Below, piece after piece: positions 7,784 through 41,035 of a DNA stretch of 43,697 nucleotides. Both the position numbers and the translations under genes were made by a program. Numbering within the stretch: position 1 is the first letter of the stretch; every line of letters starts with the position of its first letter. The notes under the pieces are model-generated. The model was not told where the DNA came from. It saw only the letters and a program-made list of their open reading frames with translations, and did no database searches. Source of the stretch: an uncultured Anaerolineae bacterium (GTDB lineage Bacteria > Chloroflexota > Anaerolineae > Anaerolineales > Villigracilaceae); contig CAIMZS010000165.1 of assembly GCA_903846015.1 (NCBI GenBank), positions 1-43,697 on the forward strand. The letters run 5' to 3'.

Positions 7784-9145
7784 CTATCCGAGTTTTTTTT
7801 GCATCGAACGCTTTAAGATTGCGCGGTAAATTTTCTCCAACCGCCGCATGATTTCGCCCGAATTGGGGTCTTTGTCACCCTGCTGTTCCACTTGCTGCAT
7901 GAGTGAAGCCAGCATACCGGTCAGTTCTTCGCCCAAATTACCCTCGTGCGCGTTTAACGCTTTTTCCAGCGAAGCGTCATCCCCGGCAGCATCCACTAAT
8001 TCATTGACCAGTTCGAGCTCTGGCGGGGTGTTGGCCTGCTGTAATACAGCCACAATCTGCTGAAGTTTCTGCATGCGCGCGGCATTATTTTTCTGTTGGG
8101 CATCGCGAAGCTTGGCTTCTAATACCTGAACAACAACCTCATTTTGGAAATTGGCCATGTTTTGCACTGTGGCTTGCATCACATCCGGCGCCAACAGTAG
8201 AGATTCGATCATCGCGTCGGCTTGTTTCATTTGCTCTTCCATGGCTTTGTCGATCTGGTTGGTGTATTCCATTATATTTTCGCGCAATTCTTCCAACGTC
8301 TTGCGCTCTGGGCCAGAAGTCTTATCGATCCGTTCCGTCAGGATCTGGAAGAAGGAATAGTCCAATCCGTTGCGAGTCATGCTTACAAGTGCTTGCAACC
8401 GGGCTTCGTTTGGCGCAGCGATGAATATTTCCAGTAGCTTTTCGCGTGTCAGCCCTTTGCCGGCATCCTGCAAAGATTTTACTGCTGCATCAAGTTCACC
8501 CATCTGGGCTTGCAGCTTGCGGCCATATTCTGAATTTGCCAGCAGTTCCTCCTGCAGCGCAGCCATAGCCTGGGCGGTTTGTTGTTGTCCTGAAGCCTCG
8601 GCAGACTGGGCCAACCGGCCAAATAATGCAAAGAAAGTCTCATCCAGTAATGCGGGTTCTTGTTTAATAAGTTCAGCTCGCACATCCGGACTTGGGGCCT
8701 GCAACAAACGTTGAATCAGGCTGACCCGTTTTTGCTGTTCGTCGAGCATTTCCTTTGTTACCCCGTCTTTTTCCAGGATTTTTTCTATCATACTCTGGAA
8801 TGTCAGGAAGCTCTGTGGGCGCAGCAGGTACCCTTTTCTTTTTTCAGGTGGCAGGCGGTTCATGACCTGGGTGATCAGTGGGCCGACCATTCTTTCCTGT
8901 TCGTTAACTGGTAAACCCAGTTCGGAAGGGAAATAAGTCAAAAGGAGTTCTTTTTCATTGTCATGATAGACAATGGGCGTTGATAATGGTCCTTCAAACC
9001 CGCAGAACGGGCAGCGCGCGTAATTGGAAACGCGCCCTATCAGGCGTTGTTTGGCGCCCGCATCGGCGGTAACATCGAAAAGTTGTTCGACTTGAGCAGG
9101 GATCATTTTGCGGCAGCGTGGACAAGAAATTTGAGTTTGAGCCAT
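7784..9145 (-). CDS. CpXC-domain protein of unknown function
   Basis: A 453-residue protein. It opens with two zinc-ribbon knuckles, ISCPRCRK (about 7-14) and ARCPFCGFEG (about 43-52), the CpXC domain found widely in Chloroflexota. Residues 50-100 contain STPIVYHDNEKELLLTYFP, typical of that domain. The rest is helical and rich in Gln, Glu and Leu, with long amphipathic stretches such as KAMEEQMKQADAMIESLLL that could form coiled coils. No membrane segment and no enzyme motif are visible. The gene starts 64 nt after the histidine kinase stop on the same strand, so the two are probably cotranscribed. Its function is not known. Confidence 0.85.
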   Translation of the reverse strand: MAQTQISCPRCRKMIPAQVEQLFDVTADAGAKQRLIGRVSNYARCPFCGFEGPLSTPIVYHDNEKELLLTYFPSELGLPVNEQERMVGPLITQVMNRLPPEKRKGYLLRPQSFLTFQSMIEKILEKDGVTKEMLDEQQKRVSLIQRLLQAPSPDVRAELIKQEPALLDETFFALFGRLAQSAEASGQQQTAQAMAALQEELLANSEYGRKLQAQMGELDAAVKSLQDAGKGLTREKLLEIFIAAPNEARLQALVSMTRNGLDYSFFQILTERIDKTSGPERKTLEELRENIMEYTNQIDKAMEEQMKQADAMIESLLLAPDVMQATVQNMANFQNEVVVQVLEAKLRDAQQKNNAARMQKLQQIVAVLQQANTPPELELVNELVDAAGDDASLEKALNAHEGNLGEELTGMLASLMQQVEQQGDKDPNSGEIMRRLEKIYRAILKRSMQKKLG

Positions 9146-9209
9146 GAGATTTCCGATTTCTGAGTTTGGAATGGGTTTTTACAATACAGTTCTATTTTAC
9201 CCTGAATGT

Positions 9210-22667: not shown

Positions 22668-23666
22668 ATGCTTCCGACCGTCTCAATTATTGTCCCCTGT
22701 CTTAATGAGGAAAAACGTATCCGTTTTTTAATGGATGCGATTTTTGCGCAAACCTATCCGCGTTCGCTGCTGACTGTGACTATCGCTGATGGTCATTCCA
22801 CTGATCATACACGTGAAGTAATCGCAGCCTTCAAGTTTGCACATCCCGATATCCAATTACAGGTAATCGACAACGATATTCGCAACATCTCTGCAGCGCT
22901 TAACCGCGCAATCAGCGCATCAGATTGTGAGATCATCCTGCGCCTGGATGCTCATTCTGGGCCATCACCGCATTATGTGGAGAAATCGGTTGCCGCCCTT
23001 CTGGATGGAAAAGGTGAAAATGTTGGCGGGGTCTGGAACATCCAGCCTGGATCTGAAACCTGGGTGGCGCGCTCCATTGCTGCCGCCGCTGCGCATCCTT
23101 TTGGAGTGGGGGATGCCCAATATCGTTACGCCCAAGAAGCCTCTTATGTGGATACTGTCCCATTTGGCGCCTATCGACGTGCGCTGATCGATAAAATTGG
23201 CGGGTATGATGAGTCTTTGTGGGCGAATGAAGATTATGAGTTTAATGTCCGTATTCGCCAGGCTGGAGGCAAGATTTGGCTCGACCCGGCTATCAACTCG
23301 GTCTATTTTGCCCGCTCGACCTTCGCGTCGTTGGCGCGCCAGTATTTTCGCTACGGGTTTTGGAAGTTTAAGATGTTGCGCCGATACCCCAACACACTGC
23401 GCTGGCGTCAGGCCTTGCCCCCGCTATTTGTTGTCAGTCTGTTCTTTGCAATTTTAGCAGCACCTTTTATTTCTGTATTTGCCTGGTTGCTGGTTCTTGA
23501 AATTTTGGCTTATGTTGGCTTATTGGGACTGGCTGGTTTAATGTTAAGTATTAAACGCCATGAAATATACTATTTTTTGGGGGTGCCCATGTCTATTGCG
23601 GTGATGCATTTCGCCTGGGGGAGCGGTTTTTTGTCGAGTATCCTGATAGGAAAATGGAATTCATAG
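22668..23666 (+). CDS. Family 2 glycosyltransferase with C-terminal membrane helices
   Basis: A 332-residue enzyme. The GT-A domain shows SIIVPCLNEEKRI, ADGHSTDHTREVI, a DXD-like LRLDAHSG and GGYDESLWANEDYEFNVR, whose ED motif supplies the catalytic base region. Three C-terminal hydrophobic segments (about 245-325) anchor it in the membrane. The pattern resembles ExoA-like transferases that extend lipid-linked exopolysaccharide repeat units on the cytoplasmic face. It opens a run of closely spaced genes; the next starts 3 nt after its stop. Sugar specificity is unknown. Confidence 0.9.
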   Translation: MLPTVSIIVPCLNEEKRIRFLMDAIFAQTYPRSLLTVTIADGHSTDHTREVIAAFKFAHPDIQLQVIDNDIRNISAALNRAISASDCEIILRLDAHSGPSPHYVEKSVAALLDGKGENVGGVWNIQPGSETWVARSIAAAAAHPFGVGDAQYRYAQEASYVDTVPFGAYRRALIDKIGGYDESLWANEDYEFNVRIRQAGGKIWLDPAINSVYFARSTFASLARQYFRYGFWKFKMLRRYPNTLRWRQALPPLFVVSLFFAILAAPFISVFAWLLVLEILAYVGLLGLAGLMLSIKRHEIYYFLGVPMSIAVMHFAWGSGFLSSILIGKWNS

Positions 23667-23669
23667 CAT

Positions 23670-25091
23670 ATGGCATCTGACACTACAAAAATACCCTGGC
23701 GGTTACGTCCTGGAGAGCAGCGTGCGTTGTTAATTATAGGCGATTTGCTGATGGCGTCGCTGGCGCTTATGGCAGGTATTTATGCCTGGTCTACCGGTGA
23801 TAAATGGCTGAAATTTTCTTTGGAATTTTTTAGGCTGCGTGTAGATTTCTGGTTTTATTTACTGCCCCTGGCTTGGATGGCTTTACTGATTGAAATTTAT
23901 GATCTGCATCGTGCCGCTAATTGGAAACGTACCATCCGAGCTGTTTTTTTGGCAGCGATGGTTGGTGGTATCGTTTATCTTTTGATTTATTTTACTTCTT
24001 CCGAGCCGGAAAGGATCAACCGCCGCGCGATCGCAGTTTTTATCGTTCTTGCAGCTTTGCTGACAATGCTCTGGCGATGGGTATATATCAGTATGTACCG
24101 TTCGCAGGGCAATTTACGGCGCGTATTGGTTGTTGGCGCAGGGGGCAATGGTCGCAGCCTGGCCGAAATATACAAAACTATCAATCCGGCGCCGTTCAAA
24201 TTGGTGGCTTTCATCGATGACGATCCTGAAAAGATAGGAACTTACATCGAAGGATACAGAATCTTGGCAGGAAGCGACAAACTTCTGCGCCTGATTGATG
24301 AATTGAATGTTTCTGAGCTGATTGTGTCAATTACTGGGGAAATGCTTGGAGAAACTTTTCAGACATTGCTGGATGCCCAGGAGCATGGCATAGAGATTAT
24401 TCGAATGGCCACACTCTATGAAGAACTGCTCGGACGAGTTCCCATTCACCACCTTGAATCCGATTGGGTTCTCCGCTCTTTCGTGGATGAGGCCCGTTCC
24501 AGCAGCTTTTTTGAAATTGGGAAGCGTCTTCTTGATATCATCGGTTCGATTGTGGGCTTGCTTATCCTGATAATTATTTTGCCGTTTCTGGCGATAGCCA
24601 CCCTGATTGATAGCGGCATGCCAATTTTTTACTGGCAGGAGCGACTTGGACGGGGTGGGCGTGAGTTCAAAATTATAAAATTCCGCACCATGCGCCAGGA
24701 TGCTGAAACAGCGGGTCAGCCACAAATGGCTGGTAAGAATGACCCGCGCATTACTCGCGTTGGTAACTTTATGCGCGTCACTCGCCTTGATGAAGTTCCT
24801 CAGTTCTGGAACGTATTGAGAGGTGAAATGAGTATCGTGGGCCCACGGGCTGAACGTGCCCAATGGGTTGCCACTTTTCAACAGGAAATCCCCTTTTACA
24901 GGGCGCGTTTGCTGGTTAAACCCGGTATCACAGGTTGGGCGCAAATCAATTATGGTTATGCTTCTACCGTCGAAGATACAGCCGTCAAACTTGAATATGA
25001 TCTGTATTACATCAAGCATCGTTCGATTGCCATGGATTTCGTCATCATTTTGCGTACCGTTGGGACTGTTCTCGGTCGAAAGGGTAGATAG
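23670..25091 (+). CDS. Polyprenyl-phosphate phosphoglycosyltransferase (initiating sugar transferase)
   Basis: A 473-residue WbaP/CpsE-type protein. Four N-terminal membrane helices (about 20-140) precede a CoA-binding-like Rossmann domain (RRVLVVGAGGNGRSLAEIY, from about 151). A re-entrant or membrane helix (about 286-314) leads to the catalytic bacterial sugar-transferase domain: YWQERLGRGGREFKIIKFRT, TRLDEVPQFWNVLRGEMSIV, GPRAERA and KPGITGWAQINYGY. This family moves a sugar phosphate from a UDP-sugar to undecaprenyl phosphate, the first step of polysaccharide assembly. The C-terminal domain alone corresponds to PglC. It has no obvious Shine-Dalgarno and is likely coupled to the preceding gene. 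Confidence 0.95.
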   Translation: MASDTTKIPWRLRPGEQRALLIIGDLLMASLALMAGIYAWSTGDKWLKFSLEFFRLRVDFWFYLLPLAWMALLIEIYDLHRAANWKRTIRAVFLAAMVGGIVYLLIYFTSSEPERINRRAIAVFIVLAALLTMLWRWVYISMYRSQGNLRRVLVVGAGGNGRSLAEIYKTINPAPFKLVAFIDDDPEKIGTYIEGYRILAGSDKLLRLIDELNVSELIVSITGEMLGETFQTLLDAQEHGIEIIRMATLYEELLGRVPIHHLESDWVLRSFVDEARSSSFFEIGKRLLDIIGSIVGLLILIIILPFLAIATLIDSGMPIFYWQERLGRGGREFKIIKFRTMRQDAETAGQPQMAGKNDPRITRVGNFMRVTRLDEVPQFWNVLRGEMSIVGPRAERAQWVATFQQEIPFYRARLLVKPGITGWAQINYGYASTVEDTAVKLEYDLYYIKHRSIAMDFVIILRTVGTVLGRKGR

Positions 25092-25094
25092 GTT

Positions 25095-26021
25095 ATGAAG
25101 CGTTATCTTGTAACTGGCGGCGCCGGTTTTATCGGCTCTCATATCGCACACGCCCTGCACGAGCAGGGCGATTTTGTGCGTGTCCTGGATAATTTCTCAA
25201 CCGGCAAGCGTGAAAATCTGGCTGGCTTGCAGCTTGACATCATCGAAGGTGACCTGCGTAACCCTGCCATTGTTGCGCAAGCTGTTCAGGATATTGATAT
25301 TATCTTCCATGAAGCCGCCTTTGTCTCAGTGCCTCAATCTATGCAAGACCCTCTGCCATGTTTTGAGATCAACCAGCACGGTACCGAAATCTTGCTGGAA
25401 GCAGCGCGCAAGGCCCGGGTTGGGCGTGTTATTTTGGCATCATCTGCTGCTGTTTATGGAAATTCTGACGATATGCCGCTCGACGAGGCTGCTGCGCTTC
25501 ACCCGCTCTCCCCGTATGCCGTTTCCAAGCGAGTTGATGAACTCTATGCCGAGATGTACACCCGTGCTTTTGATCTTGATGTAGTTGCCCTGCGTTACTT
25601 TAATGTTTTCGGTCCGCGTCAGAGACCCGATAGTATGTACGCCGCTGCTGTCCCGATTTTTGCGCGCCGGTTGATGGATGGTCACTCGATCACAATTTAT
25701 GGGGATGGAGGCCAAACACGTGACCTGGTTTATGTGGGCGATATTGTTCGAGCCAACCTGGTTGCATCCGAGCACCCTGCAGCTCCAGGACAGGTTTTCA
25801 ATATATGCGGCGGGGTGGAGATTCGCGTGCTTGATCTTGTCAGACTGCTGATGACTTTATTCCCGTCTGCTCAAGAGCCTGTGTTTTCCTCTGCCCGCGC
25901 TGGGGATATTTACCGCTCTGTTGGCAATCCTGGCAAAGCAAAAGAAGTGCTGGGTTTTGATCCGCAAACATCCATCCTCGATGGCCTTAGGGCCGTAGTG
26001 GAATGGATGAAAGCAGCCTGA
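25095..26021 (+). CDS. NAD-dependent nucleotide-sugar epimerase/dehydratase (GalE-like)
   Basis: A 308-residue extended short-chain dehydrogenase. The NAD motif TGGAGFIGSH is at residues 7-16, LASSAAVYGNSD carries the catalytic Ser, and SPYAVSKRVDELY carries the Tyr-x-x-x-Lys pair. YFNVFGPRQRPDS and GDGGQTRDLVYVGDIV are typical of UDP-glucose/UDP-GlcNAc 4-epimerases of the WbpP/Gne group. It probably prepares an NDP-sugar for the transferases around it. The start is 3 nt after the phosphoglycosyltransferase stop, and its end overlaps the next gene by 19 bp. Precise substrate is uncertain. Confidence 0.93.
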   Translation: MKRYLVTGGAGFIGSHIAHALHEQGDFVRVLDNFSTGKRENLAGLQLDIIEGDLRNPAIVAQAVQDIDIIFHEAAFVSVPQSMQDPLPCFEINQHGTEILLEAARKARVGRVILASSAAVYGNSDDMPLDEAAALHPLSPYAVSKRVDELYAEMYTRAFDLDVVALRYFNVFGPRQRPDSMYAAAVPIFARRLMDGHSITIYGDGGQTRDLVYVGDIVRANLVASEHPAAPGQVFNICGGVEIRVLDLVRLLMTLFPSAQEPVFSSARAGDIYRSVGNPGKAKEVLGFDPQTSILDGLRAVVEWMKAA

Positions 26022-27904
26022 ACGTGGTTAATCTGCGCAACCGGTTTGTCTTTTTCGTTGATATTCTGCTCATCATTACATCGGTGCTGGGCAGTTATGC
26101 TTTGCGCCTTGAATATACTCCTGATTTTGTGCGCTTTTATCTACAGGGGGCGCTGTGGTGGATCGGTATTTCATTGGTTATCAAGCCGCTGATCTATTTT
26201 TCCTTCGGTTTGTACAGGCGTTTATGGAATTATGCCAGCATTAATGAGCTCAAGCTGATTGCATTGGCTGTTACGTCTGCCTCCCTGGTTGTTTCAGTGG
26301 TCTCCCTGACTTTTTATGGGTTAGGATTGTTTGGGCCTGGGTTTTCAAAAACAGCGCTCGCCATCGATTGGCTGCTTTCCATGTTGTTAGTGGGTGGGAC
26401 GCGTTTTGCCATGCGCATTATCGCAGAATCTGCTTCTCCGCGTGGTATTGGCAAAAGCAGCAAGATCATTGTTATTGGCGCAGGCGATGCTGGGGCATTA
26501 GTAGTCAAGGAAATGCAGAAAAACCGTCAGATCAACCTGGAGCCAGTTGGCTTTCTGGATGACGACCCCGCCAAACAAAAACATTCGTTGCTGGGTGTGC
26601 CGGTCATTGGTACGCTCAACGATCTTGCCAATGCCCTCGATTCACGGCACATTGACGAAGTCATCATTGCCATCCCTTCTGCGCCTGGCCGTTTGGTACG
26701 CCTTGTTGCCGATATTTGCCGTCTTAAAGGCGTTCCTTTTCGCACCATGCCCGGTATTTATGAACTTCTCGGCGGCAAGGTCAGTGTCAGCCGTTTGCGG
26801 GAAGTCGAAATCACAGATCTCTTGCGTCGCGAGCCAGTGCGTATTCATGAAGAGTTGATTGGCCAGGTACTTCATGGCAGGCGTGTACTGGTTACAGGTG
26901 CGGGCGGATCCATTGGCCGTGAATTATGCCGCCAGATCGCTCGTTGGAATGCTTCTAGCTTGATTCTACTTGGGCATGGGGAGAATAGCATTTTTGAAGC
27001 TTTGCTTGAACTCAAGCAAGATTACCCCAATCTTGAGTTGATCCCGATCATTGCGGATGTGCGCGACGCCGTTCGCTTGCGGGCTGTGTTCGATCGTTAT
27101 CATCCGGAAGTTGTTTTCCATGCCGCCGCGCATAAACACGTCCCTTTGATGCAGGTCAACGTAGAAGAGGCGGTTGCCAATAACGTGCTTGGCACCAAAA
27201 ATGTTGTCGATATTGCTGATATGAGTGGCGTAGAGCGGCTGGTGCTTATTTCCACTGATAAAGCTGTCCATCCTGCCAATGTCTATGGCGCCACCAAGCG
27301 TCTGGCTGAAATGGTTGTCCTGGATGCTGCCCGGCGTACGGGCAAATCGTTTTCAGTTGTCCGCTTTGGCAATGTGTTGGGTAGTCGGGGTTCCGTTGTT
27401 CCGCTATTTAAGCGCATGATCGCCAATGGGGGGCCTCTTCAAATTACTCATCCAGAAATGTTTCGATTTTTTATGACTATACCCGAGGCCGTTCATCTTG
27501 TCTTGCAGGCGGCTGCGATGGGGCAGGGCGGGGACGCATTTTTGCTTAACATGGGTGACCAGGTCAGCATACTCAATCTTGCTGAAGATCTAATTCGTCT
27601 TTCTGGGTTGGAACCAGGCCGGGATATCGAGATCGTTTTCACGGGTGTGCGTCCTGGTGAAAAGCTGCGCGAAGAGTTGTGGGAGCCCGGCAAGATCTAT
27701 GATCCCACCGGTCATCCGGATATTTTCCGCTCAACAAGCGAAGATAATACCGACAGCGCCACGCTTCAATCCTGTCTTACCAGTCTTTCATCCTTGGTGC
27801 TCGCAAGCCAACCTGATGAAATCGTGTCTCTTCTTGATCAAGTTGTTCCTGGTTCGGCCATCCGCGCAACCCCACCCCCCGTGGATTTGACGGATGTGGT
27901 TTAG
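26003..27904 (+). CDS. CapD/PglF-like membrane nucleotide-sugar 4,6-dehydratase
   Basis: A 633-residue protein. Four membrane helices (about 15-140) are followed by a first Rossmann domain (SKIIVIGAGDAGALVVKEM, about 153-171) and a second, catalytic one (RRVLVTGAGGSIGRELCRQI, 293-312). The active site is STDKAVHPANVYGATKR, with D419/K420 and Y428/K432. Many membrane relatives carry Met where Y428 stands. These enzymes turn UDP-GlcNAc into a 4-keto-6-deoxy sugar, the first step toward acylated amino sugars such as bacillosamine. No matching PglE aminotransferase is in the operon. The ATG at 26003 overlaps the epimerase; a GTG at 26024 is an alternative start. Confidence 0.93.
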   Translation: MDESSLNVVNLRNRFVFFVDILLIITSVLGSYALRLEYTPDFVRFYLQGALWWIGISLVIKPLIYFSFGLYRRLWNYASINELKLIALAVTSASLVVSVVSLTFYGLGLFGPGFSKTALAIDWLLSMLLVGGTRFAMRIIAESASPRGIGKSSKIIVIGAGDAGALVVKEMQKNRQINLEPVGFLDDDPAKQKHSLLGVPVIGTLNDLANALDSRHIDEVIIAIPSAPGRLVRLVADICRLKGVPFRTMPGIYELLGGKVSVSRLREVEITDLLRREPVRIHEELIGQVLHGRRVLVTGAGGSIGRELCRQIARWNASSLILLGHGENSIFEALLELKQDYPNLELIPIIADVRDAVRLRAVFDRYHPEVVFHAAAHKHVPLMQVNVEEAVANNVLGTKNVVDIADMSGVERLVLISTDKAVHPANVYGATKRLAEMVVLDAARRTGKSFSVVRFGNVLGSRGSVVPLFKRMIANGGPLQITHPEMFRFFMTIPEAVHLVLQAAAMGQGGDAFLLNMGDQVSILNLAEDLIRLSGLEPGRDIEIVFTGVRPGEKLREELWEPGKIYDPTGHPDIFRSTSEDNTDSATLQSCLTSLSSLVLASQPDEIVSLLDQVVPGSAIRATPPPVDLTDVV

Positions 27905-27929
27905 CCCCCACGTTTGAAGGTTATAAGTC

Positions 27930-28940
27930 ATGCCCCTTGTTTCTTTTTCTGAATGGCGAAATTTCCTGAATAATAAATACCCTAACGCCCATGTTTTGCA
28001 GACTGCTGAATGGGGCGAGTTGAAATCTGCCTATGACTGGAAGCCCATCCGAATTATTTCTGATGAAGTCGGAGCGCAAATTCTATTTCGCAAGCTCCCG
28101 TTGGGGTTCACGCTTGCATATATCCCCAAGCCAGTTTTTGGTGAGCGCTTGCCACCCGACAATCACCCATTTTGGACCGAGCTTGATGCAATCTGCGCAA
28201 AAAAACGGACTGTATTTCTCAAGATAGAGCCTGATGTTTGGGAATTTTCTGATAGCCCGGAATCACACTTATCCACCTATCGGCCCCCAGCATTCATCCT
28301 TTCCCCTCACAACATCCAACCACCACGAACCATCATCATCTCACTTGCTGGAAGCGAAGAAGACATCCTGGCGCGCATGAAACAGAAATGTCGTTACAAT
28401 GTGCGTCTGGCTGAAAAAAAAGGGGTCTCTGTCCGTTTTTGGGACGACTTGGATAGTTTCTATCGTTTGATGCAAGTTACCGGCGGCAGGGATGGCTTTG
28501 GCGTACATTCGTTATCTTATTACCGCAGAGCATATGAATTGTTTCATCCCGTGGGTTTGGCGGAACTCCTGGTTGCTGAATTTGAAGGCAAACCGCTTGC
28601 AGCTTTGATGATCTTTGCCAATGGCGCCAATAGTTGGTATTTATACGGCGCATCAAACGATGAAGAACGCAACCGTATGCCCACTTATTTGCTGCAGTGG
28701 CAGGCTATAAAATGGGCCCGGGAGCGTGGTTGCACCCATTATGATTTGTGGGGTGTTCCTGATGTCGAAGAAATGACCCTGGAATCTCAATTCGAGACTC
28801 GTCAGGATGGGTTGTGGGGCGTCTATCGTTTCAAGCGCGGATTTGGCGGAACCGTCTGGCGCGCTGCGCAAGCTTTGGATAAAGTCTACCTGCCGTTGTT
28901 ATACCGGCTCTACCTTTGGCGGATGCGAAATAGAGAATAA
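27930..28940 (+). CDS. FemAB-like peptidyltransferase (GNAT fold)
   Basis: A 336-residue protein of the FemABX family. The N-terminal part has HVLQTAEWGELKSAYDW and LGFTLAYIPKPVFGE; the second GNAT half has MKQKCRYNVRLAEKKGV, LAALMIFANGANSWYLYGAS, PTYLLQWQAIKWARERGC and YDLWGVPD. These match proteins that add amino acids from aminoacyl-tRNA to peptidoglycan precursors, although some relatives act in exopolysaccharide clusters. It is the last of the closely spaced surface genes (25 nt after the dehydratase, GAAGG before the ATG), so a role in modifying the polysaccharide or wall is likely. The amino acid used cannot be told. Confidence 0.88.
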   Translation: MPLVSFSEWRNFLNNKYPNAHVLQTAEWGELKSAYDWKPIRIISDEVGAQILFRKLPLGFTLAYIPKPVFGERLPPDNHPFWTELDAICAKKRTVFLKIEPDVWEFSDSPESHLSTYRPPAFILSPHNIQPPRTIIISLAGSEEDILARMKQKCRYNVRLAEKKGVSVRFWDDLDSFYRLMQVTGGRDGFGVHSLSYYRRAYELFHPVGLAELLVAEFEGKPLAALMIFANGANSWYLYGASNDEERNRMPTYLLQWQAIKWARERGCTHYDLWGVPDVEEMTLESQFETRQDGLWGVYRFKRGFGGTVWRAAQALDKVYLPLLYRLYLWRMRNRE

Positions 28941-37177: not shown

Positions 37178-38077
37178 ATGAATGAAAATTATGATATCTT
37201 CCGCTGCATGTTGCTTATTCGCCGGTTTGAAGAGCGCGCCCTGGCTGAATTTTCTACCGGTAAGTTGTTTGGCACCACCCATGCCTATATTGGCCAGGAA
37301 GCCGATGCCGCCGCGGTTTTTTCACTTGCTGGTCCCAATGATATTGTTTGGAGCAATCACCGCTGCCACGGTCATTTTTTAGCCTATGGCGGCGATCCCT
37401 ACCGGCTCGCCGCAGAATTGATGGGCAAATCCACCGGCCTGGTGGCGGGGCGGGGCGGCAGTCAACACATCCATTGGCGAAATTTTTATTCCAACGGCAT
37501 CCAGGGGGGCATTATTCCGATCGCCGTAGGGATGGGGCTGGCCCAGAAAGTGCAAAAAAGCGCTGCTATCACGCTTGTGTTCTTCGGGGATGGCACACTT
37601 GGCGAAGGCGTACTTTATGAAAGTCTGAACATTGCTTCGCTCTGGCATTTGCCTGTGCTCTTCATCCTTGAAGACAATCGCTTCGCCCAGACCACGCCGG
37701 TTGAAAAAGGGGTCAGCGGTTCCATGCCGGCTCGCTTCCAGGCTTTCGGGATCAAGACCTGGGAAGTGGATTCGAGCGATGTGCTCGAGATCCACTCGGC
37801 TGCTGCTCAGGCCTTCCAGCATGTACGTGAGAACGCTCAGCCTGCTGCCCTGGTGCTGCATACATACCGTTTCGCTGCCCACAGCAAGGGAGACGACCCT
37901 CGCGACCGTGAAACCATCGCCCAGATTCGTGCCAGGTTCGATCCGCTCGCCATTCATGCCGCCCGTCTTTCATTCGAAGAATTAGCCCAGGCGGAAGCGG
38001 ATGTCTCAGCCATCATCGAAGATGCGTTTATACGGGCATCCGCCGATCCATTCCCGGTTTTACAGGAGCTTGGTTAG
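37178..38077 (+). CDS. 2-oxoacid dehydrogenase E1 component, alpha subunit
   Basis: A 299-residue TPP enzyme subunit, shorter than usual pyruvate dehydrogenase E1 alpha (about 320-370). THAYIGQEADAAAVFSL and SNHRCHGHFLAYGGDPYRL are family hallmarks. The TPP/Mg motif runs from GDG (137-139) in FFGDGTLGEG to N167 in LEDNRFAQTTP. The usual GGSMH is GGSQH here (93-97). With E1 beta it should decarboxylate a 2-oxoacid and acylate a lipoyl domain. No ordinary E2 or E3 lies beside it; the only lipoyl protein in the window is the NeuD fusion at 39926. ATG 37178 is chosen because homology starts there and the promoter box precedes it; longer readings overlap the divergent LysM gene. Confidence 0.92.
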   Translation: MNENYDIFRCMLLIRRFEERALAEFSTGKLFGTTHAYIGQEADAAAVFSLAGPNDIVWSNHRCHGHFLAYGGDPYRLAAELMGKSTGLVAGRGGSQHIHWRNFYSNGIQGGIIPIAVGMGLAQKVQKSAAITLVFFGDGTLGEGVLYESLNIASLWHLPVLFILEDNRFAQTTPVEKGVSGSMPARFQAFGIKTWEVDSSDVLEIHSAAAQAFQHVRENAQPAALVLHTYRFAAHSKGDDPRDRETIAQIRARFDPLAIHAARLSFEELAQAEADVSAIIEDAFIRASADPFPVLQELG

Positions 38078-38121
38078 CAAGGTATCGAAAATTGCACCGC
38101 CTTGTTAACTCTTTCAACCCC

Positions 38122-39123
38122 ATGCCAACTGTTCTCGAACGGCTCAATTACGCCCTACAGCATGCCTTGCAAACAGACGAGCGTGTCTATCTCCTCGGTG
38201 AAGACATCCTCGACCCGTACGGCGGCGCTTTTAAGGTCACACGCGGGCTTTCCAGCCAGTTTCCGGAACGTGTTCTTACCACGCCCATTTCCGAATCCGC
38301 CCTGATCGGTATTTGCAATGGTATGGCCTTGCGCGGGCTGCATCCGGTTGCTGAGATCATGTTTGGTGATTTTGTCACACTGATTGCTGATCAGCTTATC
38401 AACCATGCTGCCAAGTTCCGCTGGATGTACAACGAGCAGGTGCGTGTGCCGGTTGTTGTGCGCACCCCCATGGGCGGACGGCGCGGATATGGCCCCACCC
38501 ACTCGCAATCACTGGAAAAGTTATTTTTGGGTATTCCTGGGTTAACCGTGCTTGCCCCCAATTCCCTGGGCGATCCGGCTGAATTGTTGGAAGCTGCCAT
38601 TCAACAGGATGAGACTCCTATCCTGTTTGTTGAACATAAACTGCTCTACACTCGCCCCATGCTGGAATCTGGTCATGGTGATTTGCAGGATTGGGTTGTC
38701 ACCAGGTCCCAGGGATCCTTCCCGACCTTTACACTGCGCATCTCGCCCGCTGAGTCATCTGCCATTACCATTGCCACATACGGATATAACTTCGAGCTTG
38801 CCCGCGCGGCTGCCCTGGAGCTGGCTTATGAACATGAGATTTTTGCTGAAATTGTGCTGTTCAGCCAGATCAGTCCATTTGAGCTTTCCCCCTTATTTGA
38901 CTCGCTTCGCCGCACTAAACGCCTGCTCACGGTTGAAGAAGGCACCCTGACGCTGGGCTGGGGCGCAGAAGTGGCATCTCAGTCTGCCGCTGTGCTGCCG
39001 CAGGCGAAAATTGGCCGTGTTGCGGCGCTCAATTTACCGGTTGCCAACGCCAGGTCACTTGAAGACGCCATTTTGCCATCTCAGGAAAAGATCATCCAAA
39101 TGGCGCTTGAACTGATTAAATAA
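38122..39123 (+). CDS. 2-oxoacid dehydrogenase E1 component, beta subunit
   Basis: A 333-residue subunit of normal length. VYLLGEDILDPYGGAFKVT, TTPISESALIG (E58, which activates TPP), GRRGYGPTHSQSLEKLF and the C-terminal LLTVEEGTLTLGWGAEVASQ match E1 beta of the pyruvate/acetoin/branched-chain family. It forms the active site together with E1 alpha, 44 nt upstream. The ATG at 38122 is preferred over a TTG ten codons earlier, though neither has a good ribosome site. The specific 2-oxoacid cannot be predicted from these residues. A bidirectional hairpin follows, so the lipoyl-NeuD gene beyond is in a separate transcript. Confidence 0.94.
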   Translation: MPTVLERLNYALQHALQTDERVYLLGEDILDPYGGAFKVTRGLSSQFPERVLTTPISESALIGICNGMALRGLHPVAEIMFGDFVTLIADQLINHAAKFRWMYNEQVRVPVVVRTPMGGRRGYGPTHSQSLEKLFLGIPGLTVLAPNSLGDPAELLEAAIQQDETPILFVEHKLLYTRPMLESGHGDLQDWVVTRSQGSFPTFTLRISPAESSAITIATYGYNFELARAAALELAYEHEIFAEIVLFSQISPFELSPLFDSLRRTKRLLTVEEGTLTLGWGAEVASQSAAVLPQAKIGRVAALNLPVANARSLEDAILPSQEKIIQMALELIK

Positions 39124-39124
39124 A

Positions 39125-39153
39125 AACAGAGGCGGGTCAATCCCGCCTCTGTT
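39125..39153. terminator. Bidirectional terminator after E1 beta
   Basis: A perfect 12-bp stem (39125-39136 and 39142-39153) with a 5-nt loop between the convergent E1 beta and DUF4013 genes; short A- and T-rich flanks are present. Confidence 0.8.
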
Positions 39154-39165
39154 GGTTGTGGTGGA

Positions 39166-39837
39166 TTACATTGCCGGAGCGGCAGCTATGGCAACTTTAT
39201 AAGCCTGCCCAGTGAGATGAGCGCTCAAAGTGGTTGTATAGGCTGTGGTAAATAATAAACCTACACCGCAGATCAAAATTCCGAGTGGCGACAGGATCAT
39301 ACTGGCAAGCGCCACGCCCAGGATTTCCATCACGTACGGCCCTGGAGCCGCGCGAAGCAGTGCGAAAATTTGATTAAAGCGGAAAGCCGCGCCAAGCTCG
39401 CCAGTCGCAGCCAGGTTGCCCAACGCCGCCGGGATGAAAAACCCTGCCACAATCGCGAACAGAATGACAATGCAGGTCATACACACGCCGACCACGGTCG
39501 CGATCCCGCCCATCGTGCTGGAATCACTGTTGCTGGATGCAAATATCAAGGCAAAGGATACGCCATATTGGCACATAACCACCAGAATGATGGGCAGTGC
39601 ATAGGCCAGGCTGACCACAAACGCCTGAAAGCCTTTTGAGATAAAACTGCTAAAATTATCCCAGCCGGGCAGTGGATCAGGATCATTGTTAATAACACGG
39701 CGGGTAATTTCCAGCCCCCATCCCATCAGCGTAATTCCTCCGATCACTGGGATCAACGATACCAACGCTGCAATGCCAACCTTCTTTAACCAATCCGGAT
39801 CTTGAAAAGCAAAAGTAAAAGCGCGACCAAATTCCAT
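39166..39837 (-). CDS. DUF4013 membrane protein
   Basis: A 223-residue integral membrane protein. The start MEFGRAFTFAFQDPDWLKK at 39837 has GGAGG 8 nt upstream and is typical of DUF4013. Longer readings begin at weak or unsupported codons. Hydrophobic segments occur at about 20-40, 65-90, 105-135 and 165-200, with PLPGWDNFSSFISKGFQAF, the motif that defines the family, in a loop. The function of DUF4013 is not known. It lies between E1 beta and the lipoyl-NeuD fusion on the opposite strand, and shares an 88-bp divergent promoter region with the latter. Confidence 0.88.
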   Translation of the reverse strand: MEFGRAFTFAFQDPDWLKKVGIAALVSLIPVIGGITLMGWGLEITRRVINNDPDPLPGWDNFSSFISKGFQAFVVSLAYALPIILVVMCQYGVSFALIFASSNSDSSTMGGIATVVGVCMTCIVILFAIVAGFFIPAALGNLAATGELGAAFRFNQIFALLRAAPGPYVMEILGVALASMILSPLGILICGVGLLFTTAYTTTLSAHLTGQAYKVAIAAAPAM

Positions 39838-39925
39838 AACTTCATCCTCCATCAATAAATGAGATGGCCTATTATGGTTCAAAACGGGTAAAATTGCAAC
39901 CGTTTATTGTAACAACAGGAAAATC

Positions 39926-41035
39926 ATGTCTCCTACCCCCATTCTTGTTCCCCTGCTTAATGCCAACGAGCCTGAGGCCCGCCTCGTTGCTGTGCACGTC
40001 ACAGACGGTCAGCCTGTTAAAAAAGGTGATTTGCTCATTACAATTGAAACTACCAAGGCCGCGGCAGATGTCGAAGCTCCCATTGCGGGCTTTTTCCGTA
40101 TGTTGGCTCAGCCTGGTGACACACTTTCAGTGGGCGATACGCTTGCCTTTATCACTCAGGTCGCAGACGAGGTTCTCGAGCAAACTATAGCCGTTAATCC
40201 AAATTCAACCGGGTCACAGGCCTCGTCATCCATTGATCCTGTTTCTGCGGGGCTGCGCATCACCCGGCCTGCCCGCATCCTGGCGGAATCGCTTGGTATT
40301 GATCTTGCTGGGCTGCCCACCGACCGGCTCATCACGGAATCCATTCTGCGCGAATTGTCGGGTCAATCTCCTCAGCGTGATCGTTCCCGCCAAACCAATT
40401 CCACTATCATCATCTACGGAGCTGGCGGGCATGCCAAGGCTGTCATGGAGATGGCGCAAGCCATCGCTGCTTTCCGGATCGCTGGCATTATCGATGACAA
40501 CCAGGCTCTCACCGGTACATCTGTACTCGGAATTCCAGTGCTAGGAACGCGTGATCTGCTCCCCGATCTTTTTGAACAGGGCATTCGTCTGGCTGCCAAC
40601 GGCGTCGGTGGTATCATCGACATCAATACTCGTGTGAAACTATTTGACCGGTTGGCCGGATACGGTTTTGCTTTCCCCATTCTGCGCCATCCTCGCGCAA
40701 CGGTGGAACCATCTGCTCAAATTTTTGATGGTGTCCAGGTTTTTGCCAATGCCTATGTTGGTTCTTCAACCTTGCTGCATGAAAGGTGCATGGTCAACAC
40801 GGGCGCCATAGTTTCGCATGATTGCGAGATAGGCTCATATACCCACATCGCGCCGGGTGCCATGTTGGCCGGCCATGTGCATGTCGGCGAAAAAGCCCTG
40901 GTGGGCATGGGGGTCACCACTGCCATTGGTATCACCATCGGTAGCGGCGCGCGTATCGGCAATGGCGCAATATTACTGGCGGATGTGCCAGCCAGGGCCA
41001 TAGTCCCGGCCGGCAAGGTCTGGACTGTCTCATAA
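39926..41035 (+). CDS. Lipoyl domain - PSBD - NeuD/PglD-type acyltransferase fusion
   Basis: A 369-residue protein with a remarkable domain order. Residues 4-78 are a biotinyl/lipoyl domain: VKKGDLLITIETTKAAADVE with K44 in the ETDKA-like turn, then APIAGFF. Residues about 108-145 resemble the peripheral-subunit-binding domain of E2 proteins: RPARILAESLGIDLAGLP, then ITESILREL. Residues 159-369 are a NeuD/PglD sugar acyltransferase: IIIYGAGGHAKAVMEMAQA, IIDDNQALTG, and a left-handed beta-helix with IVSHDCEIGSYTHIAPGA (H298, H307). The chloramphenicol-acetyltransferase-like E2 catalytic domain is absent. With E1 alpha and beta just upstream it may pass an acyl group from lipoate to a sugar. 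CAGGA precedes the ATG; lgt follows after 29 nt. Confidence 0.9.
   Translation: MSPTPILVPLLNANEPEARLVAVHVTDGQPVKKGDLLITIETTKAAADVEAPIAGFFRMLAQPGDTLSVGDTLAFITQVADEVLEQTIAVNPNSTGSQASSSIDPVSAGLRITRPARILAESLGIDLAGLPTDRLITESILRELSGQSPQRDRSRQTNSTIIIYGAGGHAKAVMEMAQAIAAFRIAGIIDDNQALTGTSVLGIPVLGTRDLLPDLFEQGIRLAANGVGGIIDINTRVKLFDRLAGYGFAFPILRHPRATVEPSAQIFDGVQVFANAYVGSSTLLHERCMVNTGAIVSHDCEIGSYTHIAPGAMLAGHVHVGEKALVGMGVTTAIGITIGSGARIGNGAILLADVPARAIVPAGKVWTVS

Follow-up and report, generated by a model that had tools for sequence, protein, structure and literature searches.

The catalytic domains of E2 components of 2-oxo-acid dehydrogenase complexes are regarded as CAT-fold enzymes that pass acyl groups to CoA, and the Wlb-type UDP-GlcNAc3NA pathway comprises a dehydrogenase, an aminotransferase and a left-handed beta-helix (LbH) acetyltransferase. 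Enzymes of the PglD type use acetyl-CoA as donor according to the available portions of two reports (PMC8040287, PMC2943079). The accessible part of the first describes a conserved C-terminal proline in PglD that shifts upon CoA binding, and lists Ser13, Asp35, Asp36 and His125 as UDP-sugar contacts with His15 and Asn162 nearby (PMC8040287); for the related QdtC, a role as general base was not confirmed for the corresponding histidine in the portion available (PMC2943079). No description of a NeuD/PglD sugar acyltransferase linked to lipoyl or E1 was found in the open-access literature searched (subscription papers and preprints were not covered). A possible precedent (PMC4875605) was rejected, as 'lipoyl' in the accessible part of that paper refers to fatty-acid decoration of flagellin glycans.

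The window (the whole 43,697-nucleotide stretch of DNA that was analysed) encodes, as a single ORF with an ATG start (39926..41035, +), a lipoyl-PSBD-PglD/NeuD fusion protein of 369 aa, recognised with Pfam and NCBIfam. The lipoyl domain (aa 4-77, 39935..40156, +) was supported by a Biotin_lipoyl match to residues 18-75 (E 4.7e-10) and a confident model. The PglD N-terminal nucleotide-sugar domain (aa 161-242, 40406..40651, +), with GAGGHAK (H169) and IDDN (D190, D191), matched PglD_N over its whole length (E 8.1e-12), and the LbH acyltransferase (aa 250-366, 40673..41023, +), within which lies the SHDC histidine H298 (40817-40819, +), matched Hexapep (E 2.4e-12); all three Pfam matches exceeded their cut-offs. 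The protein also scored 177.9 bits against the NCBIfam cut-off of 160.8 for TIGR03570 (NeuD_NnaD). A profile of 11 homologues matched, among PDB chains, the E2-chain lipoyl domains 9y7v (E 2.6e-30) and 7b9k (1.1e-27) and also the sugar N-acetyltransferases 4m98, 4ea7 and 7txp. The CAT domain (2-oxoacid_dh) was absent from the Pfam results for the fusion protein and the relatives run, which leaves PglD as the sole acyltransferase recognised in the chain. That a NeuD/PglD acyltransferase with its SHDC histidine replaces the E2 catalytic domain had been proposed from the letters alone, and these searches bear it out. The joining of lipoyl and NeuD parts in one chain is real and conserved, lies far beyond chance and recurs at 43 distinct loci including the window.

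The acceptor lysine K44 (40055-40057, +), in ETTKA, is the predicted lipoyl site; its lipoylation is inferred. The top NCBIfam families for the N-terminus were 2-oxo-acid dehydrogenase E2s, the best being the acetoin E2 (E 2.5e-12, though far under its own cut-off), and biotin enzymes scored lower. Foldseek with the N-terminal domain matched biotin and lipoyl domains alike and did not tell them apart, as would be expected if the domain were a plain barrel-sandwich hybrid fold with K44 biotinylated or unmodified. The biotin-type acceptor motif is MKM, however, and the motif here is ETTK or ETDK; together with the E2 families at the N-terminus and the E1 linkage described below, this makes a biotinylated or unmodified K44 hardly credible. 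The lipoyl domain claimed by the sequence-only reading, with K44 in ETTKA, was upheld. N14, E41, T42 and K44 were kept in 43/43 lipoyl members, in part by construction for K44, because the ETxK lysine motif belonged to the rule by which members were sorted as lipoyl-bearing. D190 and D191 were likewise kept in 43/43, H298 in 42/43 and H169 in 38/43. When motifs were matched by eye, PglD residues Ser13, Asp35, Asp36, His125 and His15, as given in the available part of the PglD report, corresponded to G167, D190, D191, H298 and H169 of the fusion; Asn162 was not placed.

Residues 1-157 were modelled separately. The lipoyl domain reached pLDDT 88-96 per ten-residue block up to residue 80, and helices 114-123 and 138-144 (block pLDDT about 78-80) stood behind a disordered linker; the linkers 89-107 (disordered) and 148-157 were modelled at low confidence. 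Modelling of the whole chain gave a poor result (pLDDT 60.3; 10 sequences), and no claim on the PglD half is therefore based on it. The PSBD-like segment (aa 110-145, 40253..40360, +) rests on the two modelled helices and on hhalign, by which nine fusion segments were aligned to ten PSBDs taken from E2s of the window genome (probability 93.8, E 1.8e-7; a pairwise comparison, not a database search). Pfam E3_binding gave no match at E 1 in 10/10 close fusion members (window clade). An HMM built from the ten E2 PSBDs reached the window fusion at only E 0.12 and the distant members L100 and L099 at E 3.4e-8 and 1.6e-7; E3_binding itself matched L100 (E 0.0032) and L099 (E 0.086) and found nothing in L098, L042, L043, L048 or L049. 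In L048 and L049 a PSBD was not evident. Judged by profile comparison, the segment is diverged, PSBD-like in the window and a PSBD in L099 and L100, and its docking partner is inferred. A recognisable PSBD had earlier been read at about 108-145; the profile-profile match and the two helices favour it, and the lack of an E3_binding match in close members tells against it.

Genes for E1-alpha of a thiamine-diphosphate 2-oxo-acid dehydrogenase (37178..38077, +; E1_dh E 5.4e-53 on a longer ORF from 36950) and for E1-beta (38092..39123, +; Transket_pyr E 1.6e-32, Transketolase_C E 3.7e-14) lie upstream of the fusion gene on the same strand. E1-alpha has the GDG (ThDP) motif, and E1-beta has TPISE and HSQSLE motifs. 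Between E1-beta and the fusion gene, on the opposite strand, is a DUF4013 gene (39166..39882, -) with no known link to the system; in the close-relative set it was present in 7/8 loci showing E1-beta and absent in L013. A 12-pair terminator-like stem occurs at 39125-39153, where the E1-beta and DUF4013 genes converge, and terminator-like sites in this region were no commoner than in shuffles. With the opposite-strand gene and the stem in place, a single transcript spanning E1-beta and the fusion is unlikely in the window.

The window genome contains seven further E1-beta matches, six of them in examined stretches beside E2-like or E1-alpha genes, and PSBD matches on six other contigs (other E2s). 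The fusion and its E1 as the main PDH of the cell were rejected, other E1/E2 sets being present on other contigs. In one stretch of the same genome (L126, 3397-9981), two E1-alpha/E1-beta pairs flank one E2-like gene. In an unrooted tree, one branch (17 rows, 99/97) split the fusion-adjacent E1-betas from six other E1-betas of the window genome, and the fusion-adjacent E1-alphas were likewise separated from that genome's others (93/90; unrooted); among fusion-linked E1s, those of L049 were nearest to canonical E1s in the trees. The lipoyl synthase gene lipA was found twice (L179 and L180, both above the curated cut-off), and one copy may be foreign because the genome is 5.85% contaminated. An Lpd-like ORF was named by eye in L129.

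The nearest solved chains were human PDH E1-alpha for the window E1-alpha and 1ik6 for E1-beta. Both window E1s fell under curated PDH cut-offs (251.9 against 393.85 bits, TIGR03182; 200.5 against 321, NF006667), which, with the separate grouping of these E1s, would suit a transferred acyl other than acetyl (e.g. propionyl, isobutyryl, glycolyl or formyl), the E1 supplying an acyl that is lacking as a CoA thioester. This variant of the preferred reading is possible and no more than tentative: the nearest solved E1 relatives are pyruvate dehydrogenases and the sequence names no other substrate, so the identity of the acyl group remains an inference. Genes for malate dehydrogenase and citrate synthase also lie near the fusion locus. 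They could be taken, along with the copied E2 domain order, as signs of a PDH-like complex in which the LbH domain stands in place of CAT as a transacylase to CoA and yields acyl-CoA. The kept nucleotide-sugar site (D190, D191, H298), the tight clustering of some relatives with genes for sugar aminotransferases and sugar transferases, and the other E2s of the genome make such an acyl-CoA-forming complex highly improbable.

The co-occurrence of homologues with E1 genes had been set beforehand as a test. A contig scan, sensitive to close relatives only, turned up 11 relatives whose titles name Anaerolineae, Anaerolineales, Anaerolinea or Chloroflexi; 2 further matches, in Synergistaceae, were to the NeuD part. 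The survey was otherwise carried out within Chloroflexota, and absence of the fusion from other phyla is not claimed. No plasmid or phage record had a place covering 80% of the query, and a mobile or plasmid origin was rejected; in the viral-contig scan, 104 stretches matched the pattern, none encoding a fusion relative. Fusions and solo NeuDs pooled, matches passing the thresholds applied were found in 19/400 genomes of the phylum set, 40/396 of the class set and 59/121 of the relatives set. These amounted to 104 distinct match places (hand count, window included), of which 89 were examined with flanks; the other 15 were not examined as centres (2 phylum, 3 class including one inside L107, and 10 relatives; at least 3 full-length fusions among them). 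L014 (truncated, contig start), L039 (the same as L013) and the duplicates L212-L215, L219 and L220 were dropped before counting, and L121 (broken frame, 58 aa) was retained among the lipoyl-less loci. The final comparison was between 42 lipoyl-bearing loci plus the window and 45 lipoyl-less NeuD loci; at some loci, flanks were shorter than 1 kb on one side.

E1-alpha and/or E1-beta genes were observed in the examined flanks of 38/43 lipoyl-bearing loci (37/42 and the window) and of 0/45 lipoyl-less loci (Fisher p 8e-20, uncorrected for kinship). The idea, put forward from the sequence alone, of an acyl-dihydrolipoyl donor loaded by an E1 gains support from these counts, lipoylation and acyl transfer themselves being inferred. 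Lipoyl without a flanking E1 was found at L008, L015, L048, L098 and L184. E1-beta relatives were present on other contigs of the genomes concerned at 74% (G774), 71% (G769), 49% (G589) and 44% (G302) identity; contig coordinates together with ORF length placed L008 in G774 and L015 in G769. The assignment in G302 rests on neighbourhood, because 44% barely exceeds the maximum reached by other E1-betas (43%, G691); a DegT aminotransferase match is located some 110 bases away, as in L049. G796, which carries the L184 fusion (8007-9191, +), had no E1 in the examined flanks and no E1-beta above 40% identity in its 94% complete draft, and is the only genuine exception to linkage with E1.

A tree of the NeuD domain was built from 85 Chloroflexota rows (L108 and L113 were omitted for their short domains). 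One clade of 43 rows (support 100/99) held 38 lipoyl-bearing and 5 nested lipoyl-less members, and the genomes of the latter (G104, G176, G216, G763 and G830) had no E1-beta above 40% identity to that of the window. One nested member, L046 (9244-10113, +), retained a decayed lipoyl remnant (E 5.2e-6) in which the lysine motif was replaced, and its PSBD was gone; as far as sequence can tell, it is a natural loss of the arm, in a genome without an E1-beta above that same identity. The other lipoyl-less rows had no lipoyl-like remnant, the truncated L014 giving only a 14-residue match (E 0.14). Absence of an E1 link or loss of the lysine had been named beforehand as refuting; the link was present, and where L046 has lost the lysine motif, the PSBD and an E1-beta above that identity are missing as well. 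The five nested solo members sit at two places in one 20-row subclade and have F273L and L325Q in common; given these common changes and the poorly resolved backbone, one arm loss is as likely as two, and two independent losses were weighed and not favoured over a single one. The smaller lipoyl groups L048/L049 and L098-L100 fell on long branches elsewhere in the tree. The lipoyl label requires 4 changes on the tree, at least 2 of them forced by well-supported branches, and the presence of the fusion in three separated NeuD-tree groups of Chloroflexota may reflect repeated or independent assembly, which is unproved. By linkage and by co-loss, the architecture is evolutionarily tied to a dedicated E1.

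Co-loss also bears on the donor. The PglD domain might use free acetyl-CoA, with the lipoyl domain, PSBD and E1 serving another role such as local acetyl-CoA supply via a canonical complex or redox sensing. Acetyl-CoA is the donor in described PglD-type enzymes so far as the two partly available reports cover them (PMC8040287, PMC2943079), and the nested arm-less relatives retain the PglD domain, which is presumably functional without the arm. A C-terminal motif of the G-x-P-A-K type was found in 33/37 outgroup solo NeuDs against 2/37 main-clade lipoyl members (L015 omitted), in 1/5 nested solo members and in 0/3 of L098-L100; both L048 and L049 (2/2) retain this motif typical of solo NeuDs, a further point for free acetyl-CoA. 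The motif pattern would fit a changed donor but would equally fit common ancestry of the clade, and continued use of CoA is not excluded. Use of free acetyl-CoA is nevertheless judged unlikely, since the dedicated E1 goes with the arm and is absent where the arm is, no CAT domain is there to convert acyl-lipoyl to acyl-CoA, and the genome has other E1/E2 sets. Direct donation from the lipoyl arm is the best-supported reading, and it is unproved.

The sugar pathway around the fusion was traced in the window, its genome and relatives. The window encodes a PglF-like nucleotide-sugar 4,6-dehydratase, probably an early sugar-pathway enzyme (26003..27904, +; Polysacc_synt_2 E 7.7e-111), whose nearest solved chains are titled 'WlaL protein' (5bjy, E 2.1e-75), WlaL being PglF of Campylobacter, and a bacterial sugar transferase of the initiating phosphoglycosyltransferase type (23670..25091, +; Bac_transf E 4.2e-66). 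GT2, sugar transferase, epimerase, PglF-like dehydratase and FemAB-like genes follow in series at 22668-28940, and this series is possibly a glycan pathway that consumes the acylated sugar. The window genome has no TIGR03570 match above cut-off other than the fusion, and it also encodes a PglE-like DegT aminotransferase; the nearest solved chain of the latter is perosamine synthetase, which leaves the nucleotide of the acceptor sugar unsure. Fifteen genomes were examined in this way. The fusion was the only TIGR03570 match above cut-off in 7/7 main-clade fusion genomes among them; G302 and G589 each had a solo NeuD above cut-off in addition, and in G302, G589, G718 and G691 the fusion itself scored under the cut-off. 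A relative of the window genome's PglE-like aminotransferase with at least 49% identity (best piece) was present in 10/15 and a PglF-like dehydratase in 12/15.

Clustering with PglC-like and PglE-like genes was observed directly in relatives. On one strand of L188, all as ORFs, lie a PglC-like transferase, E1-alpha, E1-beta, the fusion and a PglE-like DegT aminotransferase; the transferase was nearer to 'N,N'-diacetylbacilliosaminyl-1-phosphate transferase' (E 8.5e-62) than to WbaP (E 1.8e-35). L186 and L185 repeat this gene set, with E1-alpha and E1-beta of L186 and the fusion and E1-beta of L185 detected by tblastn only. The order in L049 is Gfo/Idh dehydrogenase, fusion, E1-alpha (one-base overlap with the fusion), E1-beta and DegT aminotransferase. 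In the flanks of 42 fusion loci, a PglE-like gene of at least 50% identity was found at 4 and a sugar transferase at 10; a DegT aminotransferase was present in the flanks of 30/46 lipoyl-less rows. L102 (8247-10710) has a solo NeuD gene and L103 (7785-12261) two overlapping ones; their neighbours encode a DegT aminotransferase and a sugar transferase or PglF-like enzyme. These solo NeuDs are presumably the CoA-type counterpart. An amino or hydroxyl group of a nucleotide sugar had been suggested as acceptor. The nucleotide-sugar part is supported by the PglD residues and by PglF-, PglE- and PglC-like genes, which occur either in the genome or, in relatives, next to the fusion gene. An amino group has more support than a hydroxyl; the exact acceptor is inferred.

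The fusion is accordingly read as an E2-like subunit belonging to a dedicated 2-oxo-acid dehydrogenase system that yields an N-acylated nucleotide sugar and not acyl-CoA, at a probability of roughly three in four and without biochemical data. E1-alpha and E1-beta would act on a 2-oxo acid, most likely pyruvate, removing CO2 and loading the lipoyl of K44 by reductive acylation; the PSBD would dock the E1 and/or a shared E3, and the arm would swing on the disordered linker into the PglD domain, where its acyl thioester would replace acetyl-CoA. With the help of H298, the acyl group would then be transferred to a 4-amino sugar, at its 4-amino group; this sugar, linked to a nucleotide (probably UDP), would be the product of the PglF-like and PglE-like enzymes. 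Dihydrolipoamide would be reoxidised by the lipoamide dehydrogenase of the cell, and the acylated sugar consumed by the PglC-like phosphoglycosyltransferase. It is also considered probable that this constitutes a 2-oxo-acid dehydrogenase class in which the E2 is a nucleotide-sugar N-acyltransferase and oxidation is coupled to an amino sugar with no CoA thioester. If true, swinging-arm machinery can drive glycan biosynthesis directly and lipoate gains a further role; sugar N-acylation would be coupled to 2-oxo-acid oxidation instead of the acetyl-CoA pool, a new way to power it.

The C-terminal half of the fusion resembles the PglD/NeuD N-acetyltransferases (TIGR03570; C. jejuni PglD 3bss, the acetyltransferase domain of N. 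gonorrhoeae PglB 4m98, and PerB 4ea7), with which it shares the active-site histidine, the nucleotide-sugar aspartates and PglF-, PglE- and PglC-like neighbours. Unlike that family, whose described members use acetyl-CoA in the portions of the reports available, it has its own lipoyl domain, PSBD-like segment and dedicated E1. It is like the E2 of 2-oxo-acid dehydrogenase complexes in its lipoyl domain, flexible linkers, PSBD-like segment and adjoining E1-alpha and E1-beta genes, and differs in having an LbH sugar acyltransferase for the CAT fold and, by inference, an amino sugar for CoA as acceptor. The bacillosamine (diNAcBac) pathway PglF-PglE-PglD-PglC is paralleled by a PglF-like enzyme in the window, a PglE-like enzyme in the genome and a PglC-like enzyme beside the L188 fusion, but the PglD step is here apparently powered by a 2-oxo acid via E1 and lipoate. 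L049 recalls the Wlb-type pathway in being bordered by a Gfo/Idh dehydrogenase at one end and a DegT aminotransferase at the other; where that pathway would have its LbH acetyltransferase stand the fusion, E1-alpha and E1-beta.
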